DNA from: an uncultured Desulfovibrio sp.
Lineage (GTDB): Bacteria > Desulfobacterota > Desulfovibrionia > Desulfovibrionales > Desulfovibrionaceae
Direction of reading: 5' to 3'
DNA length: 41,383 bases
Assembly: GCA_944324555.1 (NCBI GenBank)
Contig: CALUWU010000165.1
Location: 1 to 41,383, forward strand
Positions 6,901 through 36,058 of the stretch are shown in pieces. Both the position numbers and the translations under genes were made by a program. Numbering within the stretch: position 1 is the first letter of the stretch; each line of letters opens with the position of its first letter. The notes under the pieces were generated by a model. The model was not told the origin of the DNA and did not search any database. It worked only from the letters and a program-made list of their open reading frames with translations.

Positions 6901-8223
6901 CTGGGCGAGCGCTTCCTTGACGTAGCCGTCGAGGAGCTTGCGGTCGTATTCGGTCAGCGGAACGTCCTCGACCTTTTCCGGGTCAACGGCCAGACGCTGG
7001 TTGAGCTTGTAGCGGCCCACCGGCGACAGATCGTAGTAATCGGTGCTGCGGAAGAGATTGTCGAAGAAGCTGGCCGCGATTTCGGCGGTCGGCGGCGAGG
7101 AGGGCCGCAGACGGCGGTAGATTTCTTCCTGCGCCTTTTCCATGTCGGGGATGCGATCCTGCGCCAGGGTGTCGCGAATGGAAGAAGACGTGTCGGTGCC
7201 CTTGGTGTGCAGCACGGCCACGCGCTGAATGCCCACCTCGCGCATGCGCTCCACCAGACCGGGGGTCAGCTCGTCGGAAGCCTCGGCCAGAACCTCGCCG
7301 GTATTGACGTCGGTCACGTCTTCGGCGAGGAACATGCCGTCCAGGGTGTCGGGACGCACCTCGATGGCTTCAAGCCCGGACTCGCAGATCTGCCGCCAGC
7401 CGCGCTTGGTGATGGGCTTGCCCGCGCGCACCAGCACCGTGCCGTCGGGGGCGAGAATGTCGGAATAGGCGTTGTCCTTGCGGTACAGATCCTTGCGGAC
7501 TTCCCAGAACAGCCTGTCGGCGTCGCCGAGGCGGTAATATTCGCGGGTGTAGAAATAGTCCAGGATGTCCGTCTTGCTCATGCCCATGGCCTTGAACAGG
7601 ATGGTGGCGGGCATCTTGCGGCGGCGGTCGATGCGGACGTAAAGAATGTCCTTGTGGTCGAAATCAAAGTCGAGCCACGAGCCGCGCATGGGGATGACGC
7701 GGCAGGAGTAGAGCACCTTGCGGCTGGTGTGGGTCTTGCCGCCGTCGTGCTCGAAGATGATGCCCGGCGAGCGCTGCAACTGGTTGACGATGACGCGTTC
7801 CGTACCGTTGATGATGAAGGTGCCCTTTTCGGTCATCAGGGGCAGGGTGCCGAAATAGATGTCCTGACCCTTGATTTCGCGCACCGTATAGGGGGCGGCG
7901 TTCTCGTCGGTATCGTAAACGACAAGATGCACCTTGATGCGGACCGGCGCCTCGTAGGTCAGGCCCTTGGCGATGCATTCGGCCTGGTCGTACTTGGGTT
8001 CGACGATTTCGTAGCCGACGAACTCCAGGCTGGCCGTGTCGTTGAAATCCTTGATGGGGAAAACGGTGCGGAAAACGCCTTCAAGCCCGACGTCGGGCTT
8101 GCGGTCGGCGGGGGCGACGCCTTCCTGCAGGAACTTTTCGTAGGAGTCGATCTGCAGGGTCAACAAGTGGGGAATGGGGAGCGATACTTTGATCTTGCCG
8201 AACTTTTTTATGAGCTGGCCCAT
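3940..8223 (-). CDS. rpoB: DNA-directed RNA polymerase subunit beta
   Basis: This is the second large core RNA polymerase subunit, 1427 residues and slightly longer than the E. coli protein. The start ATG at 8223-8221 ([15 protein letters not shown]) is preceded by a GAGGT Shine-Dalgarno. The rifampicin-binding cluster lies at about residues 550-580 ([22 protein letters not shown]). The Asp, His, Arg and Ser positions known from E. coli resistance mutants are all in the wild-type state, so no resistance mutation is visible there. The invariant [17 protein letters not shown] follows. The C-terminal [23 protein letters not shown] region is intact, and the protein ends in an acidic tail. rpoC follows downstream. 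Unusually, no rplL or rplJ gene precedes it; the next gene upstream is a divergent porin. Confidence 0.98.
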
Positions 8224-8456
8224 GAGTACCTCAAACAGGTAGCGGTTGCGCTTCGGCTGGCGCGCGGCGGGGCTGGCGTCCCGGGTTGCGCGCCGTCAGA
8301 TACGTGGCTGTGATGCGAAGCACCCCTCTTGCCGCATCACGGGGCCGTGACAGGGATCGCCTGCGTCGGCTGGGGCGGATTCCACGAAGCGTGCCGCGAT
8401 CCGAAGCGTATGTCTTCTTCGACCATATGCGCGTTCCCTGCGGAACGCGTTTTCTT

Positions 8457-8480: not shown

Positions 8481-8533
8481 GGAAATATCTTGTCGACTTC
8501 GAGCCGGGACGCGCGGCGGAAAAACACGCGCAA

Positions 8534-8585
8534 AAACGACAAAAGGCCACAGTCCGCTTGCACGGACGATGCGGCTTTGTCGTTT
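8534..8585 (-). promoter_or_regulatory. Long interrupted stem-loop in the rpoB leader (attenuator or terminator candidate)
   Basis: The outer arms AAACGACAAA (8534-8543) and TTTGTCGTTT (8576-8585) pair perfectly. Inside them GCC/GGC (8546-8548 with 8573-8575) and GTCCG/CGGAC (8552-8556 with 8563-8567) also pair around a 6-nt loop. On the minus strand the 3' arm ends in TTTTGTCGTTTTT, like an intrinsic terminator. A terminator about 310 bases upstream of rpoB could act as a leader attenuator, or end an upstream minus transcript. The structure is seen; the role is inferred. Confidence 0.5.
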
Positions 8586-8744
8586 GAAAAAGCTAGATAT
8601 GTCGCGCTGTTGGATAAGAAATCGTCAGCTTTTGCTCCCTTCGGAAAGTCGTCTCTTTCTAAGCTTTACCCCACAAAGAGGGGAAGCGCAAGGGAAAAAT
8701 ATTTCGCGCAGCGACAAATTTATGACAATTTTAGTTCAAAAAAC

Positions 8745-8773
8745 TTTACAACAGACTATGGCTGCTGTATTCT
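8745..8773 (+). promoter_or_regulatory. Porin promoter
   Basis: TTTACA (8745-8750) and TATTCT (8768-8773) are separated by exactly 17 bp in an AT-rich stretch, matching a sigma70-type promoter. Transcription would start near 8780, giving a leader of about 80 nt before the porin ATG at 8860. Confidence 0.6.
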
Positions 8774-8859
8774 ACGGCCCATCCGCAGTGAGGGGACTTC
8801 GGATGTTTGCCGCCTTGACGGTCGGCGTTTTTATAAACTCCCACGGAAGGATTTTTCCC

Positions 8860-10398
8860 ATGAAACGTATCATGACGCTCGCCCTGGCTGCCGCCATGGT
8901 GTTCGGCGCGGCGACCGGCGCTTCCGCCATCGATTTCAAGGCCTCCGGCCAGTGGATTCTCGGCATGTCCGCCGGCGAAGCCAACTTCGTCGACAAGCAC
9001 AACGGCCGCCATGCCGATAGCAATGACACCTTCTCCGCTTCCCAGCGCGTTCGCCTGCAGCTGGACGCCGTGGCCTCCGAGGCCCTGTCCGGCACCGTGT
9101 ACTTTGAAATCGGCGATCAGACCTGGGGCAACAGCAGCAGCGGCGGCGCCATGGGCGCCGACGGCACGGTCGTGGAAGTGAAGCGCGCCTACCTCGACTG
9201 GGTCGCTCCCAATACCGACCTGCAGTTCCGCATGGGTATCCAGGGCCTGGCCCTGCCCAGCGCTGCCGGCGGCAGCGCCGTGGCCGATACCGACGCGGCC
9301 GGCATCACCGCCAGCTATCAGTTCAACGACAACGTGAGCCTGACCGCCCTGTGGTCCCGCCCGGTGAACGACAACTACACCGGCAACGAATTCGGCCGCA
9401 ATTCCAACTACCTCGACAATATCGACGTCTTCGCCCTGACCCTGCCCCTGAATTTCGACGGCATTTCCGTCACCCCCTGGATCATGTACGGCATGGTGGG
9501 CAAGAACTCCCTCAATACCGGCTGGGACGCCACCACCAACACCTACAATCCGCTCCTGACCAAGGACGGTTCCGTGGTGGATACCCTGACCAGCCGCTTC
9601 GTGGGCATGAACACTGTCGACGGCCTGGCCCCCAGCACCTCCAAGGCCTACGGCTCCCTCTTCTGGGCCGGCCTGCCCATCAAGGTGACCATGTTTGATC
9701 CGCTGAACGTGGAAGTGGACCTCAACTACGGCTACGCCGAAAAGATGGGCCGCTACAACGTCTACAAGCGCGGCATGGAAATCGTCCGCGCCTCCACCGA
9801 GCGCGAAGGCTGGGTGGCCAAGGCTCTGGTCGAATACAAGATGGACTGGGGCACGCCCGGCGTCTTCGGCTGGTACGGCAGCGGCGACGACGGCAACGTC
9901 AAGAACGGTTCCGAGCGCATGCCTTCCCTGTCTCCCTTCCCGTCCTTCACCAGCATGATGGGCGGCGCCGGCATCGACTGGTCAGCCAACTCGGCTCTCT
10001 ATGAAAAGGCCGACAACTTCGACGGCAGCTGGGGCGTGGGTCTGCGCATCGCCGACATGAGCTTCGTGGACAACCTGAAGCACACCTTCATCGCCGCCTA
10101 CCGCGGCGGTACCAACAGCCCCTCCATGGTGAAATACATGAGCAGCGCCGTGGCCTGGAACCAGAGCTCCCTGACCGGCAACTCCGTGGAAGGCCCCTAT
10201 CTGACCACCAACGACGGCCTGCTGGAATTCAACCTGATCACCTCCTGGCAGATCTATGAAAACCTCGAGGCGAATCTGGATCTCGGCTATGTCGTGAACA
10301 TGGTCGACAAGGATACGTGGGAGCGCTCCTACATGAACGATTCCTTCTCCAAGCAGGACGCCTGGAAGGCTTCGCTCGTGTTCGCCTACAGCTTCTAG
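8860..10398 (+). CDS. Outer membrane porin (Desulfovibrio homotrimeric porin type)
   Basis: This 512-residue protein is predicted to form a beta-barrel diffusion channel in the outer membrane. The ATG at 8860 was chosen over longer in-frame possibilities because GGAAGG sits 9 bases upstream. It also starts a textbook signal peptide (MKRIMTLALAAAMVFGAATGASA, residues 1-23 with cleavage after ASA). The mature part is rich in alternating aromatic and polar strands and in Asn, Gly and Asp loops, with no long hydrophobic helix. It ends in AYSF; a C-terminal Phe is the usual recognition signal for barrel assembly. It is monocistronic, with its own promoter and a strong terminator. Family assignment is from overall resemblance to porins abundant in Desulfovibrionaceae; substrate preference cannot be told. 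Confidence 0.85.
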   Translation: MKRIMTLALAAAMVFGAATGASAIDFKASGQWILGMSAGEANFVDKHNGRHADSNDTFSASQRVRLQLDAVASEALSGTVYFEIGDQTWGNSSSGGAMGADGTVVEVKRAYLDWVAPNTDLQFRMGIQGLALPSAAGGSAVADTDAAGITASYQFNDNVSLTALWSRPVNDNYTGNEFGRNSNYLDNIDVFALTLPLNFDGISVTPWIMYGMVGKNSLNTGWDATTNTYNPLLTKDGSVVDTLTSRFVGMNTVDGLAPSTSKAYGSLFWAGLPIKVTMFDPLNVEVDLNYGYAEKMGRYNVYKRGMEIVRASTEREGWVAKALVEYKMDWGTPGVFGWYGSGDDGNVKNGSERMPSLSPFPSFTSMMGGAGIDWSANSALYEKADNFDGSWGVGLRIADMSFVDNLKHTFIAAYRGGTNSPSMVKYMSSAVAWNQSSLTGNSVEGPYLTTNDGLLEFNLITSWQIYENLEANLDLGYVVNMVDKDTWERSYMNDSFSKQDAWKASLVFAYSF

Positions 10399-10428
10399 TC
10401 CGGCGCGGTTTCCGACCGTCTGAGACAG

Positions 10429-10466
10429 GGACGCCGCCCCCTTTCGGGGACGGCGTCCTTTTTTTT
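10429..10466 (+). terminator. Rho-independent terminator of the porin gene
   Basis: GGACGCCG-CCCC pairs with GGGG-A-CGGCGTCC around a short CTTTC loop and is followed by eight T residues (10459-10466). It lies 30 bases after the porin stop codon. Confidence 0.9.
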
Positions 10467-10521
10467 GTCCTTTTGCCGGGGATGAAGGTTTTCCGTTCCG
10501 GAATGGGTCCCCGTCTTTGTC

Positions 10522-10557
10522 CCGCGCCCTCGGGGCGGGCGCGGCCTTTTATTTCTT
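10522..10557 (+). terminator. Second plus-strand terminator-like hairpin
   Basis: CCGCGCCC (10522-10529) pairs with GGGCGCGG (10537-10544), followed by CCTTTTATTTCTT. The tail overlaps the end of the convergent gene at 10549. It could act as a back-up stop for porin read-through or as a barrier between convergent genes. Confidence 0.5.
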
Positions 10558-11514
10558 GTCGGTCTGCGAGGGAAGGCTCCCCGCCATTTCCCGCGCCAGG
10601 CGGTAGATGCGCTTGGAACCCTTGCGGTCGAGCGGAATCCATTGCAGGCGGTTGTTGTCGTCCAGGCGCAGGCTGCGCTCAAATTTCAGCAGGATGAGGG
10701 AGCCGCCGTCCTCCTGTCGTTGCAGCGCCGTCTTCTGGGCCTGAAAGATGAAGATATCCTGATGGATGCCGAAGTGCGGAATGAAGATGACGAGAAAGCG
10801 CTCGAAGGTGCGGAGCCATTGCGCGGCGATTTCGGGCGAAAGCCGGAAGGTCGCGCCGGTGGGGGATATGGTATGCAGGCGCGGCGCGTCTTCTTCCTTT
10901 TCCTCGGACTGCCGCAGCAGGGCCTTCAGGGCCTGCAGGGTGCGGGGCAGGGTGGGAGCCAGCACAAGACGCGTCGAGGAGGGGCAGGTGCAGTCAAGCA
11001 GCGCCGGAGGATCGATGACGGGACGGACGACGGGGCGGCGCGTCAGGGAGACGACAAGACGCGCCTCGTCGACGCGCCGCTGCACCTCCCGGACAGCCGC
11101 CGTGCCGGAGACTTCCAGGCGCGTGTCCTCGTCCTTGACGGTGAAGGTATAGGAGCAGTAGTCGGCAATCGTGTCCAGCGTCGGCGGCGCGTCCAGCAGG
11201 GAGAGGGTCAGGGGCGTCTCCTGCAGCACTCGCGCGGTCAGGCGGCATTCCTTCTCGGCGCCCGACGCGGCGTTCAGCGTGCGGCAGGACAGATAGACGG
11301 GGAGCTTTTGTTCCCGGGCTGCGCGAAAGACGTCGTGGCGGCGCGAGCGCCAGAGATTGACGCCGCTGTTCTTTTTCTGCTCCTCCTCGTCGGAGCCTTC
11401 GCCGCCCGAGGTCATGAGACGCAAGATTTCCGAGATCTGATCCTTGAGTTCGGCGACGTGATTGCGCCAGAGCGTCACTTTGTCGTTGCCAAGGATGAAA
11501 TGCTGCGCTTTCAT
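10549..11514 (-). CDS. Conserved-type hypothetical protein, possible PilZ-like
   Basis: This 321-residue soluble protein has no signal peptide or membrane segment. An Arg-rich stretch (WRSRRHDVFR, about residues 55-64) is followed far downstream by HTISPTGATFRL (about 214-225). Together these loosely recall the RxxxR and (D/N)xSxxG signatures of c-di-GMP-binding PilZ domains, with a two-lobed YcgR-like layout. The spacing is not canonical and the Asp/Asn is replaced, so this is only a suggestion. Residues 35-50 are acidic and probably unstructured (GSDEEEQKKN). It lies 80 bp downstream of the gamma-glutamyltransferase gene on the same strand and may be its operon partner. I do not recognise the family with certainty. 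Confidence 0.55.
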   Translation of the reverse strand: MKAQHFILGNDKVTLWRNHVAELKDQISEILRLMTSGGEGSDEEEQKKNSGVNLWRSRRHDVFRAAREQKLPVYLSCRTLNAASGAEKECRLTARVLQETPLTLSLLDAPPTLDTIADYCSYTFTVKDEDTRLEVSGTAAVREVQRRVDEARLVVSLTRRPVVRPVIDPPALLDCTCPSSTRLVLAPTLPRTLQALKALLRQSEEKEEDAPRLHTISPTGATFRLSPEIAAQWLRTFERFLVIFIPHFGIHQDIFIFQAQKTALQRQEDGGSLILLKFERSLRLDDNNRLQWIPLDRKGSKRIYRLAREMAGSLPSQTDKK

Positions 11515-29587: not shown

Positions 29588-29626
29588 GCGGGGAAAGGGA
29601 AGCGTTTCCCTTTCCCCGCTTTTTTT
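29588..29626 (+). terminator. Terminator of acs
   Basis: GCGGGGAAAGGGAA (29588-29601) pairs perfectly over 14 bp with TTCCCTTTCCCCGC (29606-29619), with a 4-nt loop and a run of seven T residues. Confidence 0.95.
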
Positions 29627-29871: not shown

Positions 29872-30180
29872 ATGAACAAATTTCTTCTGTCCGGCATGCT
29901 GATTGGCGCCTTTGTCATGGGCGGCATGACCTGCGCGCCCGCCGACCTTCAGGCCGCCGAGGCCGCCCGCATGCAGCTCAACCGGGCGACGGCGGACGAA
30001 CTGGCCGCCTCCGGCGCCGTGGACAAGGCTACCGCTGAAAAGATTGTGAAGCTGCGCGAAGACCTCGGCGGCTTCCAGTCCTACGACGATCTGGAAGAAC
30101 TGGGCATTCCCGCGGAACAGATGCAGAAACTGCGAGACGCGACCACCATCCAGAGCGCCGACGCCGACTGCAACTGCTAG
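29872..30180 (+). CDS. Exported helix-hairpin-helix protein (ComEA-like)
   Basis: This 102-residue protein has an N-terminal export signal (MNKFLLSGMLIGAFVMGGMTCAPADLQAAEA). The Cys in GGMTC could be a lipobox, though the pattern is poor. Residues about 34-95 form a ComEA/PsbU-type helix-hairpin-helix: MQLNRATADELAASGAVDKATAEKIVKLREDLGGFQSYDDLEELGI. In ComEA this fold binds incoming DNA without sequence specificity. The protein ends DADCNC, with two Cys close to the terminus. The ATG at 29872 has CGGAGG upstream, and the gene has its own promoter and terminator. No competence genes are in the window, so a role in DNA uptake is only possible. Confidence 0.82.
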   Translation: MNKFLLSGMLIGAFVMGGMTCAPADLQAAEAARMQLNRATADELAASGAVDKATAEKIVKLREDLGGFQSYDDLEELGIPAEQMQKLRDATTIQSADADCNC

Positions 30181-30318: not shown

Positions 30319-30381
30319 ACGTGCCTGCCCCGCGCAGGCAGTCCCTTTTCCGGCGTCTCGCACGCCGCACCATTGCAACGC

Positions 30382-32553
30382 ATGAAAGAATCCTGTTCTC
30401 GTCGAACCTTCCTCAAGCTCGGCGCGGCGCTGGTTTCGGGCGGCGTTGCCGCAAGCGCGCCCCGCGCCGCTTCCGGCATGGGCTTCCGCCCGGCCGTCGC
30501 CGACGACGTCGTTACCACAGGCCGGGGCTACTGTCCTTTCTGTCAGGTCCGCTGCACCTATGAGGCCCGGCTGCGTAACGGGCGCGTCGAGAGCCTGAGC
30601 GGCCTTGTCGGCAACCGCTGGACCGGGGGCGCCATGTGCCCCAAGGGCTTGTCCATTCTGGAACTGATGCGCAGCCCGGAACGTCTGACGCATCCCCTCC
30701 GGCGTCTTCCGTCCGGGCAGTGGGAGCGCATTTCCTATCAGGACGCCGTGGAGCTGACGGCCGAGCGCCTGCTGGCCTGCATGCGCGCGCACGGCGACAA
30801 GGCCGGGGATCGCGTGGCCATGACCATGCCTCTCTGGGATTGCCGCGAAAGCGAGATCGCGGCCCTGCTGGCGCTGCGCGCCGCGGGCAGCGTCCATGCC
30901 ATGCCGCCCGGGGAATCCTGCGTTTCCAGCGCGTCCAACATGCTGGGCGACATGCTGGGCGTCTACAGCGGCACCGTCAAGGTGCATGAAGTGCTGAAGA
31001 CGCAAACGCTCGTTCTCTGGGGCGCCAATGTGGCGGAACTCTATCCCCCCTATAGCCGCTGGCTCGCGCAGGCGGCGGCGCGGGGCGTGCGTATCATTTA
31101 TATAGATCCCCGGACGACGCGCACCAGCGCGCTCGCCCATACGCAGCTGCGGCCGCGCCCCGGTACGGACGGCGCGCTGGCGGCGGGGGCGCTGCGCGCC
31201 ATCCTCGCCGGCGGCGCCTACGACCCCGAACAGGCCCGGGCGCTGCTGGACGGCTTCGATCAGCTCGCCGGCGATGTGGAACGCTATACGCCGGAGATGG
31301 TTTCCGCCGCGACCGGCCTTGGGCTGGAAGAAACGCGCGCCTTTTATGACGCGCTGGCGAAAAGCCCGCGTACCATCGTCTGGCTCGGCGGTTCGCTTTC
31401 TCGCTACACCAACGGCATCACGACCCTGCGCGCGATCATTCTCGCGCAGGCGCTGCGCGGCAACGTCATCGGCGAAGGCCGGGGACTGCTGACCTTCCAG
31501 AGCGGCAAGCCCGACGGCGACGAGGAATTCGTCGATCACTTCTTCGGTCCGACGCAGCGGCGCAAGATGAACTTTCGCCGCCTCCGCAGCGCCATGCGGC
31601 GGGGCAATCTGGACGTGCTCTTTCTCAATTCCAGCTATCGGCGCTATCCCGATGCGAAAGGGACCCTGGCGGATCTGAAAAAGATTCCCTTCATCGCGCA
31701 CATGGGCTTTTTCATGACCGAAGAGTGCGAGGCCGCCCATCTTTTCATTCCGGCGACCTTCGGCCCGGAAAGCGCCGGCACGGGGTACGGCAACGAGCAG
31801 CAGGTCGTCTGGCGCGATCAGCTGGAAACGCCTCCCGGCGAATGCGTTCCCGGCTGGCGCTTCTACCGGGACGTGGGGCGGCTGGTTGATCCCCGCCGCT
31901 ATCCCGACTTTGCCGATCCGGAAGATCTCTACAGGCAGTTCGCCGCCGTGGTTCCTTCCTGGAAGGGCATGGATCTGGACGCCCTGCGCGCCTCGCCGGA
32001 CGGTCTTGTCTGGCCGCTGTACGCCCGGGGAGACGCCGAGCGTCTGGACTGCGTGTTCCGCGATGGCAGGCTGCTGACCCCCGACGGCAGGATGAAGGTC
32101 GTCGACGGTCTTTTCGGCCGGGTTTCCGAATGGGACTATCCGCGCGGCTACCCCGGAGGGAAGGACGGTTCCGCCGAATTCCCTCTTGTTCTCCTTCAGG
32201 GCAAGGTCCTCTGGCACTGGCAGCAGACCCTGACGAATTTTTCGCCGTCGCTGGCGGAATTTTCCGCGGGGCGCCTTGTGGCCGTGCATCCGGAAACCGC
32301 GCGCGCGTACGGGCTCCGGCAGGGGGATCGCGTCATGCTGGAAACTTCGGCGGGCGCGCTTGAGGGCTGGGTGGACGTCAGCGAGACCGTTCTCCCCGGC
32401 ATGGTCTTCACCCCCTCCCACCTCGGCGCGACCGCTCCGCTGGAACGCAACCGGGGGGAACATATCAATACCATCCTGCCCAACTACTGGGATCGCATCT
32501 CCTGCCAGCACAACGGCGTGGGGTGCCGTCTCCGCAGCCTGGAGCGGGCCTGA
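30382..32553 (+). CDS. Tat-exported molybdopterin oxidoreductase catalytic subunit
   Basis: This periplasmic catalytic subunit of the DMSO-reductase superfamily has 723 residues. A Tat signal (SRRTFLKLG, residues 6-14) is followed by a [4Fe-4S] motif, Cys51-x2-Cys54-x3-Cys58-x27-Cys86. The likely Mo ligand is Cys180 in PPGESCVSSASN. The C-terminal dinucleotide-binding domain contains VHPETARAYGLRQGDRVMLETSAGALEG. The size and the downstream anchor and cytochrome b genes resemble PhsABC thiosulfate reductase or a compact FdnGHI formate dehydrogenase. The formate-type Cys/Sec-His motif is absent. The ATG at 30382 has no clear Shine-Dalgarno; a TTG three codons upstream is possible. The substrate is undetermined. 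A 330-bp gap holding a repeat separates it from the next subunit. Confidence 0.88.
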   Translation: MKESCSRRTFLKLGAALVSGGVAASAPRAASGMGFRPAVADDVVTTGRGYCPFCQVRCTYEARLRNGRVESLSGLVGNRWTGGAMCPKGLSILELMRSPERLTHPLRRLPSGQWERISYQDAVELTAERLLACMRAHGDKAGDRVAMTMPLWDCRESEIAALLALRAAGSVHAMPPGESCVSSASNMLGDMLGVYSGTVKVHEVLKTQTLVLWGANVAELYPPYSRWLAQAAARGVRIIYIDPRTTRTSALAHTQLRPRPGTDGALAAGALRAILAGGAYDPEQARALLDGFDQLAGDVERYTPEMVSAATGLGLEETRAFYDALAKSPRTIVWLGGSLSRYTNGITTLRAIILAQALRGNVIGEGRGLLTFQSGKPDGDEEFVDHFFGPTQRRKMNFRRLRSAMRRGNLDVLFLNSSYRRYPDAKGTLADLKKIPFIAHMGFFMTEECEAAHLFIPATFGPESAGTGYGNEQQVVWRDQLETPPGECVPGWRFYRDVGRLVDPRRYPDFADPEDLYRQFAAVVPSWKGMDLDALRASPDGLVWPLYARGDAERLDCVFRDGRLLTPDGRMKVVDGLFGRVSEWDYPRGYPGGKDGSAEFPLVLLQGKVLWHWQQTLTNFSPSLAEFSAGRLVAVHPETARAYGLRQGDRVMLETSAGALEGWVDVSETVLPGMVFTPSHLGATAPLERNRGEHINTILPNYWDRISCQHNGVGCRLRSLERA

Positions 32554-32883
32554 GGGCGGGCGTCTTCCCGGGCTGAAATCCCCACGCCTGCCGGGGCCGG
32601 GAAGTCTGGAACCTGGGGGCAGAACTCATTATCAAGCGCTGTTTTCCTGCGGGATAACATGCAAAAAAATATCACTACACTACATGTTATGAAAAATATC
32701 CATCTTTGCCTGGCAGTACATTATGCGCGGGTTTTGGGGAAGATGGGGGAGTTTGAGGGGGAATTACGGGAACGCCTTTCCTCGCTTCGCTGCGGAAAGG
32801 CTGGGCCCTTTTTGCCGCAAGCAAAAGGGGTTTCTTCCCCCTCAAGAAAACCGTACTGAGCCCAGAACCTAGAGGAGGGCGCC
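32554..32883 (+). other. Intra-operon spacer holding a repeat
   Basis: This 330-bp gap separates the molybdenum subunit gene from the iron-sulfur subunit gene. It contains a GC-rich segment, then repeat family 1 (32692-32872), and the ribosome site GAGGAGG (32873-32879). The frame of the upstream gene stays open beyond its TGA for some distance, but the sequence there is repeat DNA without protein-like composition. Confidence 0.6.
32692..32872 (+). repeat. Dispersed repeat family 1, long copy
   Basis: It starts AAAAATATCCATCTTTGCCTGG and ends AGAACCTAG, like the copy at 17591-17685. In between, TGAGGGGGAA (32754-32763) and TTCCCCCTCA (32835-32844) are perfect 10-bp inverted arms enclosing 71 bp. 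That inner part includes GCCTTTCC...GGAAAGGC and GGGCCCTTTTTGCCGC, terminator-like and shared with 38939-39009 on the other strand. The short copy lacks the inner part. Confidence 0.85.
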
Positions 32884-33615
32884 ATGCCGCGCTATGCCAT
32901 GATTATTGACGCATCCCGCTGTATCGACTGCAAGGCCTGCCTGCTCGCCTGCCGTCAGCGCAACAACGTGCCGCAAGGATACAGCCGCAACTGGGTGCAT
33001 CCCTTTCCCGACGCCGCCGCGCCGCTGGGGCTCCACTTTCAGCCGGGGGCCTGCATGCACTGCGACGACGCGCCCTGCGTGCGGGCCTGTCCCACGCGCG
33101 CGACCTACAAGGCGGCGGACGGCTCGGTTCGCATTGACCTCGCCCGCTGCGCCGCCTGCGGCGGCTGCATCGAGGCCTGTCCCTACAACGCGCGCTACCG
33201 GCATCCGCAGACCGGCCTGCCGGACAAGTGCGACTACTGCGCCGGGACGCCGGACATGTCCCCCGCCTGCGTGCAGGTCTGCCCCATGCGCTGCCGCGCT
33301 TTCGGCGATCTTGATTCGCCCGGCAGCCCCGCGGCCGTCGCCCTGGCCGCCGGCAATCCCGTGCAGCGGGTGCGCCCGGCCGACAACGATACCCGGCCGA
33401 CGCTTGCCTACGTCAACGGAACCGCGCCGCTGGACTGGCCGCAAAGCCGGCCCCGTCCCCTGCCGCTGGAGGCCATGAGCTGGGTTGCCGGAGCCGTGAC
33501 CGTTCTGGGGGGCGTTTCGCTGGCGGGCTGCGCCGCCGTCCTGCTGAAAAATCGTCTGGCCCCCCCGACTGAAAACGATACCGTCTCCCGAGGAGATCGC
33601 CATGACCATGATTAG
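32884..33615 (+). CDS. Four-cluster iron-sulfur electron-transfer subunit with membrane anchor
   Basis: This beta subunit passes electrons between the molybdenum subunit and the membrane cytochrome b. It has 243 residues. Sixteen cysteines fall in four groups: CIDCKACLLAC (Cys13, 16, 19, 23), CMHCDDAPCVRACP, CAACGGCIEACP and CDYCAG...SPACVQVCP, fitting four [4Fe-4S] clusters as in FdnH, HybA and PhsB-type proteins. A single hydrophobic helix (about 201-222, WVAGAVTVLGGVSLAGCAAVLL) near the C-terminus probably anchors it, as in FdnH. It has no own signal peptide; such subunits are usually exported together with the Tat-bearing subunit. GAGGAGG precedes the ATG. It overlaps the next gene by 14 bp. 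Confidence 0.93.
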   Translation: MPRYAMIIDASRCIDCKACLLACRQRNNVPQGYSRNWVHPFPDAAAPLGLHFQPGACMHCDDAPCVRACPTRATYKAADGSVRIDLARCAACGGCIEACPYNARYRHPQTGLPDKCDYCAGTPDMSPACVQVCPMRCRAFGDLDSPGSPAAVALAAGNPVQRVRPADNDTRPTLAYVNGTAPLDWPQSRPRPLPLEAMSWVAGAVTVLGGVSLAGCAAVLLKNRLAPPTENDTVSRGDRHDHD

Positions 33616-34315
33616 ACGGCATTCCGCCCCGGCAGTCTTCATGCACTGGTGCAACGCCTGCTGCTGGCTTCTGCTGACGTTCACGGGCTTTGCCCTGCTT
33701 GCCAATCCTGAAATGCAGCCCGTCGGCCGCTGGTGGAGCGATCTGTGGCATGAGCTTTTCGGCGGGCTGGGCCTGCTGCGCCTGCATATCTTCGCGGGGC
33801 TTTTCTGGCTGGCGGCGTATATCGTTTACATCCTGGCGCGCTGCAAGGCTGATGTGCTGCCCTTCTTGCGGGAGATTCTTGCCGTTCGGCCCGCGGCCGA
33901 TCTGCGCTGGTGCGGGCTCAAGGCCCTCTGGCTCACAATCGGCCCCCGGGGAATGCGCCGGCTTGGCCTGTCGGGCGAACTGCCGCCGCAGGGCTTCTAC
34001 AATGCCGGCCAGAGGCTGGTCGCGCTGATCGCGGTCGTCTGCGGCGTCATGCTCGCGCTGACGGGGCTGGTCCTGCTCTTCCTGTCGGGGGCTTCGGCTT
34101 CCGCGTCGGCGCTGCGCTGGTGTCTGCTGCTGCATTTTTGCAGCGCCGGCGTCATGGCCGTTCTTATTCCCGTACATATCTACATGGCGGCCCTTGCTCC
34201 CGGAGAAGGCCCCGCGCTGCGTTCCATGCTGACCGGCATGGTTCCCCTTGCCCATGCGCGCGAACATAATCCCCTCTGGGCGCGCCGCCTCGAAGCAGAA
34301 GAAAGGCGTTCGTGA
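33602..34315 (+). CDS. Cytochrome b subunit (FdnI/PhsC family)
   Basis: This integral membrane di-heme cytochrome b links the periplasmic oxidoreductase with the quinone pool. It has 237 residues and four hydrophobic segments (about 18-34, 58-80, 147-170 and 180-203). Candidate heme-ligand histidines are His15 (FMHW), those in LWHELFGGLGLLRLHIFAG, and those in LLLHFCSAGVMAVLIPVHIYMAA. GFYNAGQRLVAL matches the family's YNxxQ block. The start ATG 33602 lies inside the end of the iron-sulfur gene, with GAGGAG 6 bases upstream, so translation is coupled. FdnI-type cytochromes occur with formate dehydrogenases and PhsC with thiosulfate reductase, so the family does not settle the substrate. Confidence 0.9.
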   Translation: MTMIRRHSAPAVFMHWCNACCWLLLTFTGFALLANPEMQPVGRWWSDLWHELFGGLGLLRLHIFAGLFWLAAYIVYILARCKADVLPFLREILAVRPAADLRWCGLKALWLTIGPRGMRRLGLSGELPPQGFYNAGQRLVALIAVVCGVMLALTGLVLLFLSGASASASALRWCLLLHFCSAGVMAVLIPVHIYMAALAPGEGPALRSMLTGMVPLAHAREHNPLWARRLEAEERRS

Positions 34316-34374
34316 CGCCGTCGCCGGCGTCGCGGATTTTTCATCTTAACCCCTTACCTAATGGAGGCTGGAAC

Positions 34375-35829
34375 ATGTTGCAGAAACATGCTGCCGTTGC
34401 CCTGACGCTGGCGGCCATGCTGTGCATGGCCGGCACGGCGTCCGCGGCGTCGCGTCCCGCCGTCATGGCCTCGCCGAGCCCGTCCGCCGCGATGGTGATC
34501 GGCATGCCGGGCATGGTCAACGGCGTCAAGCTCAAGACCATCAGCGGCGTCGTCAAGACGCAGTGGGACGGCGTCGTCCTGCGGAAAACGCGCGTCACCT
34601 CGAAAGGCGTCGTCATTCCGCCGTCCGGAGCCTATATCACCATCCGCTCCGGCAACTGGAAACCGTTCGACAACGAACCCATCACCCTGGGCGGCAAGCC
34701 GTTCTATTACATCAATCAGCGCTCCGTGCGCGACGTGCTGCATGATGTGACGTTCACGCCCGGCGAAACCAAGGCCATGAACCACAAGAGCCGCGGCTGG
34801 CAGCTGACGCAGGTGGAAAAGGACCCCTTCTTCATGGAAGGCGGGTATGTGGCCACCTTCAAGCTGGTGAAGGCCACCGGCAACTATTATGGCGAAGCCT
34901 TCCCCGTCATGGCCGGCCCCCGCGTCAACAATGACGGAAGCAACGGCGTCGCCGCCGCCAAGAACTACGAGGAAGCCGGGGTGTCGGAACGGAAAGGACG
35001 CCTGGACGACTTCATCATGGGCAAGAACGTTTCCGCCGACGGCCGCACCTATGTCGTCGTTGACAGCGTGACCCCCGACGAGGTCAAGGTGCGGGAAATG
35101 GGCACGGACAGCATCACCGACGCCTGGATTTCCGCATCCGCTCCGATGATGACCTCCTGTCGCGCCGGCGACAAGTTCGTCGTTGGCGACGCCGAGGTTC
35201 AGGTGACCATGATTTCCAACGACGCCGCGACCATCCTCATTTCCGAGGGCGGCAAGACCGTGGAAAAGACCTTTGGCCCCTGGAACGCCGATACCCGCTC
35301 GAAGCTCTTCCTGTCCGAAACGGTTCGCGATTCTTTCTGGACGCTGTCGCCCAGCGGCAAGCAGATCGTGCATCTCAACGTCAACGGCAAGGAGTCGCCG
35401 CTCGGGAACGGCAAGGTGTCTCTGGTTGCCTACAAGGACGTCATCGACATTCAGGACGGTTCCCTCTGGCCGTATGATCCGCGCTTCATCGCGCGGCCCG
35501 AGACCTGAGCGACCTGCTCCTTTATCCATGAGATCACCCTTGAGAACAAGGATGAAATCATTCTGGATAAGACCAGCAACGTGTTTGCTGGACCGCACGA
35601 TTATTTCAAGGTTGTTCTGGACGAATTCGACGGCAAGAAAGTGTCCGCGTGGCACTTCGAGGACAAGGACGGCAACAAGACCGGGAACCTTGCCGAACGC
35701 GGCAAGGGCGCGCACATCGATCTTGTGGTGGGGCAGCAGTGCCGTTCCACCGCCCATTTCTTCAGCCGCATCTATCCCGCCCTCTACAGGGAAGCCGTGG
35801 AGAAGCTGAACGGGAGCGCCCGTCCCTAG
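34375..35829 (+). CDS. Candidate exported selenoprotein, UGA-encoded Sec at codon 378
   Basis: A Sec-type signal peptide (MLQKHAAVALTLAAMLCMAGTASAA) starts this frame; GGAGG lies 7 bases before ATG 34375. The mature part is beta-rich and fits no family I know. An in-frame TGA occurs at 35506-35508, after FIARPET. The same frame continues for 107 codons with the same GC-rich codon use and clearly protein-like sequence (ATCSFIHEITLENKDEI, then DYFKVVLDEFDGKKVSAWHFED) to TAG 35827-35829. No ribosome site or good start lies after the TGA. Reading UGA as selenocysteine gives a 484-residue protein with the redox motif U-A-T-C (Sec378, Cys381). A SECIS-like stem-loop follows at 35528-35561. It is the fourth gene of the molybdoenzyme locus, 59 bp after the cytochrome b gene. 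The alternative is a recent nonsense mutation. Confidence 0.7.
35506..35508 (+). other. In-frame UGA, probable selenocysteine codon
   Basis: This TGA is codon 378 of the frame starting at 34375. Three codons later is TGC, giving Sec-x-x-Cys, a common arrangement in redox selenoproteins. If read as a stop, the protein ends at 377 residues and the next 107 codons are left without a start. Confidence 0.65.
35528..35561 (+). promoter_or_regulatory. SECIS-like stem-loop
   Basis: ATGA-GA-TCA-C-CCTT (35528-35541) pairs with AAGG-A-TGA-AA-TCAT (35548-35561): 4, 3 and 4 bp separated by small mismatches. The apical loop is GAGAAC (35542-35547). The loop is 33 nt downstream of the UGA and has G as its first base. 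Both fit the general bacterial SECIS pattern recognised by SelB (short stem, G at the start of the loop, loop roughly 16-37 nt from the UGA). Confidence 0.55.
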
Positions 35830-36007: not shown

Positions 36008-36058
36008 GGCGCGCCCCGGCGATTTCCTCAGGGAGTCGCCGGGGCGCGCCCCTTTTTG
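36008..36058 (+). terminator. Terminator of the molybdoenzyme/selenoprotein locus
   Basis: GGCGCGCCCCGGCGA (36008-36022) pairs perfectly over 15 bp with TCGCCGGGGCGCGCC (36036-36050), followed by CCTTTTTG. It ends the plus-strand transcript about 180 bp after the selenoprotein stop. Confidence 0.9.

Follow-up and report, generated by a model that had tools for sequence, protein, structure and literature searches.

The window, a stretch of 41,383 nucleotides from the genome of an uncultured Desulfovibrio sp. (Desulfovibrionaceae; GenBank assembly GCA_944324555.1, contig CALUWU010000165.1), carries on its forward strand, in this order, genes for a small helix-hairpin-helix (HHH) protein, a molybdopterin enzyme, an Fe-S subunit, a cytochrome b subunit and a candidate selenoprotein, with strong terminator-like hairpins at both ends. 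All features described below lie on the same strand. The first of these hairpins (29588-29619) precedes the HHH gene (29872-30180; PF12836), whose 102-residue product, which we take to be ComEA-like, has a putatively exported N-terminus. The molybdopterin oxidoreductase gene (30382-32553) begins with an ATG at 30382 within an open reading frame that opens at 30373 with TTG, shows by eye a twin-arginine start (SRRTFLK) and ends in TGA. It is followed by the gene for the Fe-S subunit (32884-33615; PF13247), in which a C-terminal membrane helix was recognized by eye, and by that for a cytochrome b561-type subunit (33602-34315; PF01292), which is similar to the gamma subunit of formate dehydrogenase and also ends in TGA. 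At 34308-34337, between the genes for cytochrome b and the selenoprotein, is a terminator-like hairpin that may attenuate or separate the two, and the strong hairpin that follows the selenoprotein gene occupies positions 36008-36050.

The selenoprotein gene (34375-35829) has a GGAGG upstream of its ATG. Its translation consists of 377 residues, a TGA as codon 378 (35506-35508), 106 sense codons and a TAG stop at 35827, for a total of 484 residues with selenocysteine (Sec) included; the TGA and the TAG are the only in-frame stops. A putative signal peptide (approximately residues 1-25; 34375-34449) ends by eye in ASA, and the AlphaFold model has a helix at residues 2-19. Three codons past the TGA lies the codon of Cys381 (35515-35517), the second residue of a U-x-x-C motif that reads U-A-T-C in the translation and is invariant at this Cys in a 19-member alignment. 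The Cys456 codon (35740-35742; QQCRST) corresponds to Cys in 10 of the 19 aligned members, so it is not a general feature. The first-pass annotation had described the signal-peptide frame with its single TGA, the open continuation and the nearby Cys, and our translation agrees. It had also claimed that no start follows the TGA, which is right for ATG and TTG, both of which are missing in frame, but slightly overstated, since five in-frame GTG codons occur there. A second frame (35273-35809) overlaps the TGA. Under a first-order Markov null with local composition, an open run of 106 codons after the TGA has a chance probability of 8.5%; the open tail by itself is thus poor evidence and comparison with homologues is needed.

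When 60 relatives were searched with the joined protein, one other genome (G039) matched, and none of 36 genomes of the same genus did. The G039 relative has a Cys codon exactly at the TGA position (RPET-U-ATC in the window, RPDV-C-GHC in the relative). A profile search across the order (348 genomes) found the family in 36, including three more from the window's genus; copy numbers are lower bounds because at most four candidates were scored per genome. It was also present in 10 of 395 genomes sampled from the phylum, the window's own genome counted, and scanning GTDB genomes with names turned up 14 loci under titles that include Mailhella, Desulfoplanes, Pseudodesulfovibrio, Desulfovibrio and Desulfomicrobium. 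The distribution is patchy, and TGA reappears in the phylum outside the window's own taxonomic family, in families f21 and f15, as well as in locus L056, which the tree tool labels Myxococcota.

Across 84 distinct DNA contexts, several of which are near-copies and which are therefore not independent, the codon at the site is TGA in 26 (window included), TGC in 27 and TGT in 4. The remaining 27 contexts (15 AAC, 7 AAT, 4 AGC and 1 GAT, for Asn, Ser or Asp) all come from tandem proteins, as first domains without the motif; the Cys of these proteins is in the second domain. These contexts represent the fetched relatives with identical DNA collapsed, minus 15 rows in which the site is not covered and one tandem match (G238:C48); all 84 are given since our rule put every row with TGA or Cys into the motif class. 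Among the 31 Cys contexts, a divergent one (L107/L114/L118) has no second Cys. In genome G399 this divergent relative (L118, approximately 6967-8295) has kept the first Cys (CPQGHG), and the same genome has a TGA copy (L117).

The first-pass annotation had looked to homologues with TGA or a Cys codon at this position, conserved on both flanks, as support for Sec, and to Trp, Arg or Gly codons as evidence against it. Both kinds of expected codon were found, and Trp, Arg and Gly occur in none of the 84 contexts. In five pairs of TGA genes, dN/dS equals 0.06-0.32 both before and after the TGA (0.32 and 0.30, respectively, for the window gene and L058) and third codon positions are the least conserved, pointing to purifying selection on both sides. 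The residues invariant in the 19-member alignment include Sec/Cys378, Cys381, D368, R370, F371, W426, H427 and E429, among others. The case for selenocysteine is carried by the relatives, whose TGA or Cys codons line up with the TGA of the window gene; on this comparison the codon at 35506-35508 is almost certainly decoded as Sec, to give Sec378-x-x-Cys381.

The machinery for such decoding, which the first-pass annotation had proposed to look for, is complete in the window's genome (2.89 Mb in 192 contigs, 88% complete). We found selA (504 bits), selB (330 bits, or 351 with its neighbour, above the cut-off), selD (310 bits, with an in-frame TGA of its own) and, for selC, a tRNA-Sec with anticodon TCA (82 bits). 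Two formate dehydrogenase-like genes of this genome also contain an in-frame TGA; the second of them (L126, G000:C13) reads CARL-U-HGP at its TGA and has a textbook SECIS hairpin.

The expected bacterial SECIS stretch of the window gene (35509-35568) allows hairpins, though not canonical ones. The best hairpin conforming to the bSECIS rule, our own version of the published bacterial rule, has -11.4 kcal/mol and an AGAA loop at 34 bases, and its loop does not begin with GG, as the loops of three known Sec genes from this genome do (GGC, GGC and GGTCT). Within the family, the hairpin is of textbook form in L056 and L120, where a GGTCT loop lies 21 bases past the TGA, and plausible in L068 and L070, with an AGGT loop at 22 bases; in most other TGA members it is weak. 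The rule fits 11 of 26 TGA and 7 of 26 Cys sequences (the 26 TGA being loci here, not the 26 TGA contexts above), and so does not separate the two. Mean folding z-scores against synonymous-codon shuffles were -0.37 for TGA and -0.29 for Cys sequences; as the known Sec genes used as controls were not picked out either (-0.41, 1.13 and -1.79), this comparison has little power. No hairpin common to the family after the TGA emerged from MFE folds, the bSECIS rule, group-wise alifold or the shuffles. The Rfam SECIS_1 model is uninformative, with no match in the window's genome or in any of 14 control genomes, and at its gathering threshold Rfam gave no SECIS in L056, L120 or L002. According to PMC13188914, some bacterial SECIS elements depart from the model. 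Its weak SECIS makes this family a test case for message recognition by SelB in this group.

A family tree was built from 45 rows, with L071, L074, L078 and L080 skipped as short and seven near-copies dropped by hand; the four short members were assigned to the window's branch by motif and similarity, outside the tree. Two changes between Sec and Cys are needed on this tree, which is also the minimum forced by its well-supported branches. The Sec forms L056 and L120 group near the tandem Cys forms on a long branch, and the tree tool warns that long branches meet, so that the direction of the Sec/Cys change is not fixed. L066 and L067 are single-domain Cys forms nested inside the Sec group. Their genomes (G250 and G253) also hold TGA copies (L078 and L062, respectively).

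The tandem-doubled Cys form (L044-L055, L057, L012 and L121-L123) is mostly ~970-1000 residues long. It keeps C-x-x-C in the second domain and lacks it in the first in all 27 contexts read. A gene for a PF03601 transporter, a family whose proteins are called sulfate exporters, adjoins the tandem gene in 17 of 17 loci. The same stretches, which differ in length, contain an HHH protein gene in 14 loci and an arylsulfotransferase-like gene in nine, while a Mo gene at >=40% identity is nearby in three (L054, L122 and L123).

The neighbouring Mo/Fe-S/cytochrome b module occupies positions 30382-34315 of the window. None of the 25 NCBIfam matches listed for its Mo subunit reaches the cut-off (best 204 versus 666 bits). 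The catalytic Cys is followed by Val or Ile, with no His, in 7 of 7 sequences read in frame (7 of 10 counted; L063, L081 and L122 were left out). A TOBE-domain protein and an FmdE/MoCF_biosynth fusion occur beside the module in several loci (L064, at 8510-11444; L060, L061, L069, L074 and L079), hinting at molybdenum handling or regulation. The HHH protein, found with the tandem Cys genes as well, travels with this module, an odd companion for a periplasmic redox system.

In the branch of the window, 12 of 16 loci have a Mo gene in the stretch that was fetched, with varying gene order. Contig ends truncate two of the remaining loci (L060 and L074), and the other two (L059 and L071) have no Mo gene nearby. 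Three of the corresponding genomes (G251 for L060, G238 for L059 and G157 for L071) have a Mo gene on another contig; the fourth (G247 for L074, 76% complete) gave no Mo subfamily member at E 1e-120 despite its cut-off copy of the window's branch. No Mo gene at >30% identity was found in the 11 fetched stretches around TGA loci of other branches or in those of L066 and L067. Over the 348 genomes of the order, the family occurs in 36, the Mo subfamily (E 1e-120) in 22 and both in 19 (hypergeometric 1e-18, uncorrected for relatedness of the genomes); Mo copy numbers are lower bounds, as at most three candidates were scored per genome. Conversely, 17 of the 36 family genomes lack the Mo subfamily at E 1e-120, and G121, G182 and G167 have the module but not the family, G182 and G167 on short contigs.

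The full-length AlphaFold model (pLDDT 79.4, pTM 0.76; 22 rows) is nearly all beta, and residues 378-383 form a turn between strands 368-377 and 384-391. A second model, of residues 217-460, reached pLDDT 82.0 and pTM 0.69 (15 rows). Foldseek gave no PDB match at E <=0.001 for the full-length model or the C-terminal half; TM-scores stayed below 0.3 among the 50 matches listed for each model, with no thioredoxin among them. A new fold is a possibility on these models rather than a finding. The profile search of PDB sequences returned a single match at E 1.5, which is no relative; neither Pfam nor NCBIfam release 20.0 (E 0.01) assigned a family to any of 19 members; and the 110 pattern matches in viral contigs included no relative.

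Table 1 of PMC13188914 (2026) tabulates 119 prokaryotic selenoprotein families, none of which resembles the window protein by name or motif; those with Pfam or NCBIfam models gave no profile match, and those with cd or PTHR models only were compared by name and motif. For Desulfomicrobium orale DSM 12838 (2,783,374 bases), PMC12013277 reports six known and no new selenoprotein genes, and PMC8318568 gives 34 predicted selenoproteins in a marine deltaproteobacterium. Among the matches listed in open-licence PubMed Central literature, we found no paper on this protein. The statement of the first-pass annotation that no described selenoprotein is of this kind thus held against Pfam, NCBIfam and that Table 1. 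A new selenoprotein family is well supported by the comparison of homologues, and we consider it very probable. It is absent from the profile libraries searched and from Table 1 of a recent inventory (PMC13188914), yet it is spread over Desulfovibrionales and turns up again in further families of the phylum and in a single MAG that carries the label Myxococcota; annotation easily cuts selenoprotein genes at the TGA.

As for function, we propose that SelA, SelB, SelC and SelD would decode codon 378 as Sec to yield a 484-residue precursor, which is presumably exported and trimmed of its signal peptide. The mature protein is predicted to be mostly beta, with Sec378-Ala-Thr-Cys381 in a turn between two strands. 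The likely core of this proposal, which does not depend on the partner, is an exported selenoprotein whose U-x-x-C is redox-active. In the periplasm, a reversible selenenylsulfide may form between Sec and Cys, or the pair may carry a sulfur or an electron-poor substrate. For the window's branch, the likeliest partner would be the neighbouring molybdopterin enzyme along with its Fe-S and cytochrome b subunits; this complex would exchange electrons with the quinone pool, and the selenoprotein would serve as its redox or sulfur relay. Such a periplasmic partnership is our best functional guess, a tentative one, and the relay chemistry as proposed is more doubtful. The linkage in 12 of 16 loci, the 19 genomes with both systems and the Mo gene near three tandem Cys loci argue for the partnership; the absence of a Mo gene from the TGA loci of other branches, the 17 family genomes that lack the Mo subfamily, the three genomes with the module alone and the hairpin at 34308-34337 argue against it. 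The broadest formulation is possible but speculative: the window protein would found a new selenoprotein family whose fold is absent from the PDB, its Sec-x-x-Cys beta turn acting in the periplasm as redox or sulfur carrier for an undescribed Mo respiratory complex linked to quinones, while the tandem Cys version would work with the PF03601 transporter and arylsulfotransferase-like proteins.

The same distribution bears on a role apart from the Mo complex, for example as a general periplasmic thiol oxidoreductase or antioxidant, with linkage incidental in one lineage. The Mo-free TGA loci of other branches (0 of 11), the 17 family genomes without the Mo subfamily and G121, with its module but no family, speak for it. 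Linkage that persists through varying gene order in the window's branch and reappears in 3 of 17 tandem Cys loci speaks against it, and we regard it as unlikely, although the strongest competitor of the Mo partnership. Somewhat less likely is a selenoprotein whose U-x-x-C turn binds metal or heme or is structural, with no redox or relay function. A beta turn with Cys-x-x-Cys is reminiscent of metal knuckles, and two residues of the same half of the protein, His427 and Glu429, are invariant. They are, however, the only two such ligands that are invariant, the third Cys being present in 10 of 19 members. Metal-handling selenoproteins are known, but Sec mostly serves redox chemistry (PMC13188914).

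Decoding of TGA as Cys, Trp or another residue without selenium, whether through a suppressor tRNA or an altered code, is very improbable. The lack of a canonical SECIS in most members and the Cys at the site in homologues would suit it, but the genome has SelA, SelB, SelD and a tRNA-Sec with the TCA anticodon, and Trp is found at the site in 0 of 84 contexts. Genome-wide reassignment of TGA was ruled out, as TGA is the normal stop of the neighbouring Mo and cytochrome b genes. A true stop, whether a recent nonsense mutation, an assembly error or frameshift, or a gene end before an unrelated 3' gene, might draw on the 8.5% chance of the open run and on an assembly in 192 contigs, but has a negligible probability and was ruled out by the same TGA in 26 distinct contexts aligned with Cys in homologues, by protein-level constraint past the TGA and by the missing in-frame ATG.

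Complexes of the formate dehydrogenase-N type have the same subunit make-up as the neighbouring complex (Mo, Fe-S and cytochrome b), and formate dehydrogenases are the top matches of the Mo subunit among those listed for NCBIfam and the PDB. Formate dehydrogenase has Sec or Cys followed by His at the Mo ligand (UHxP in Table 1 of PMC13188914), whereas the neighbouring enzyme has Cys-Val/Ile; its identity as a formate dehydrogenase was ruled out by the cut-offs and the missing His. Polysulfide/thiosulfate reductase (PsrA/PhsA; PDB 2vpw) belongs to the same superfamily, but the Mo subunit scores 144 bits against the PhsA profile with a cut-off of 694. Through its neighbourhood, the family draws attention to a molybdenum complex, so far uncharacterised, in genomes of Desulfovibrionaceae and Desulfomicrobium. 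Among selenoproteins, the uncharacterised NCBIfam groups (TsoA/B/C/X/Y, OS_HP3, OS_HP5, GOS_B/C and hypothetical DG/DW/DF, as named in PMC13188914) are alike in having been predicted from an in-frame TGA with Cys homologues, and several come from the same phylum (PMC12013277); they differ in that no NCBIfam family matches any of the 19 members studied here. The known U-x-x-C selenoproteins (thioredoxin, glutaredoxin, Prx-like and DsbG-like, among others; PMC13188914, Table 1) share Sec-x-x-Cys and the interchange of Sec and Cys. The window family has no Pfam or NCBIfam match to them, and in the model its motif sits in a strand-turn-strand rather than at a helix start. The thioredoxin motif is located at the start of a helix. 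The window family would add a selenoprotein family with a U-x-x-C site that is not of the thioredoxin type.
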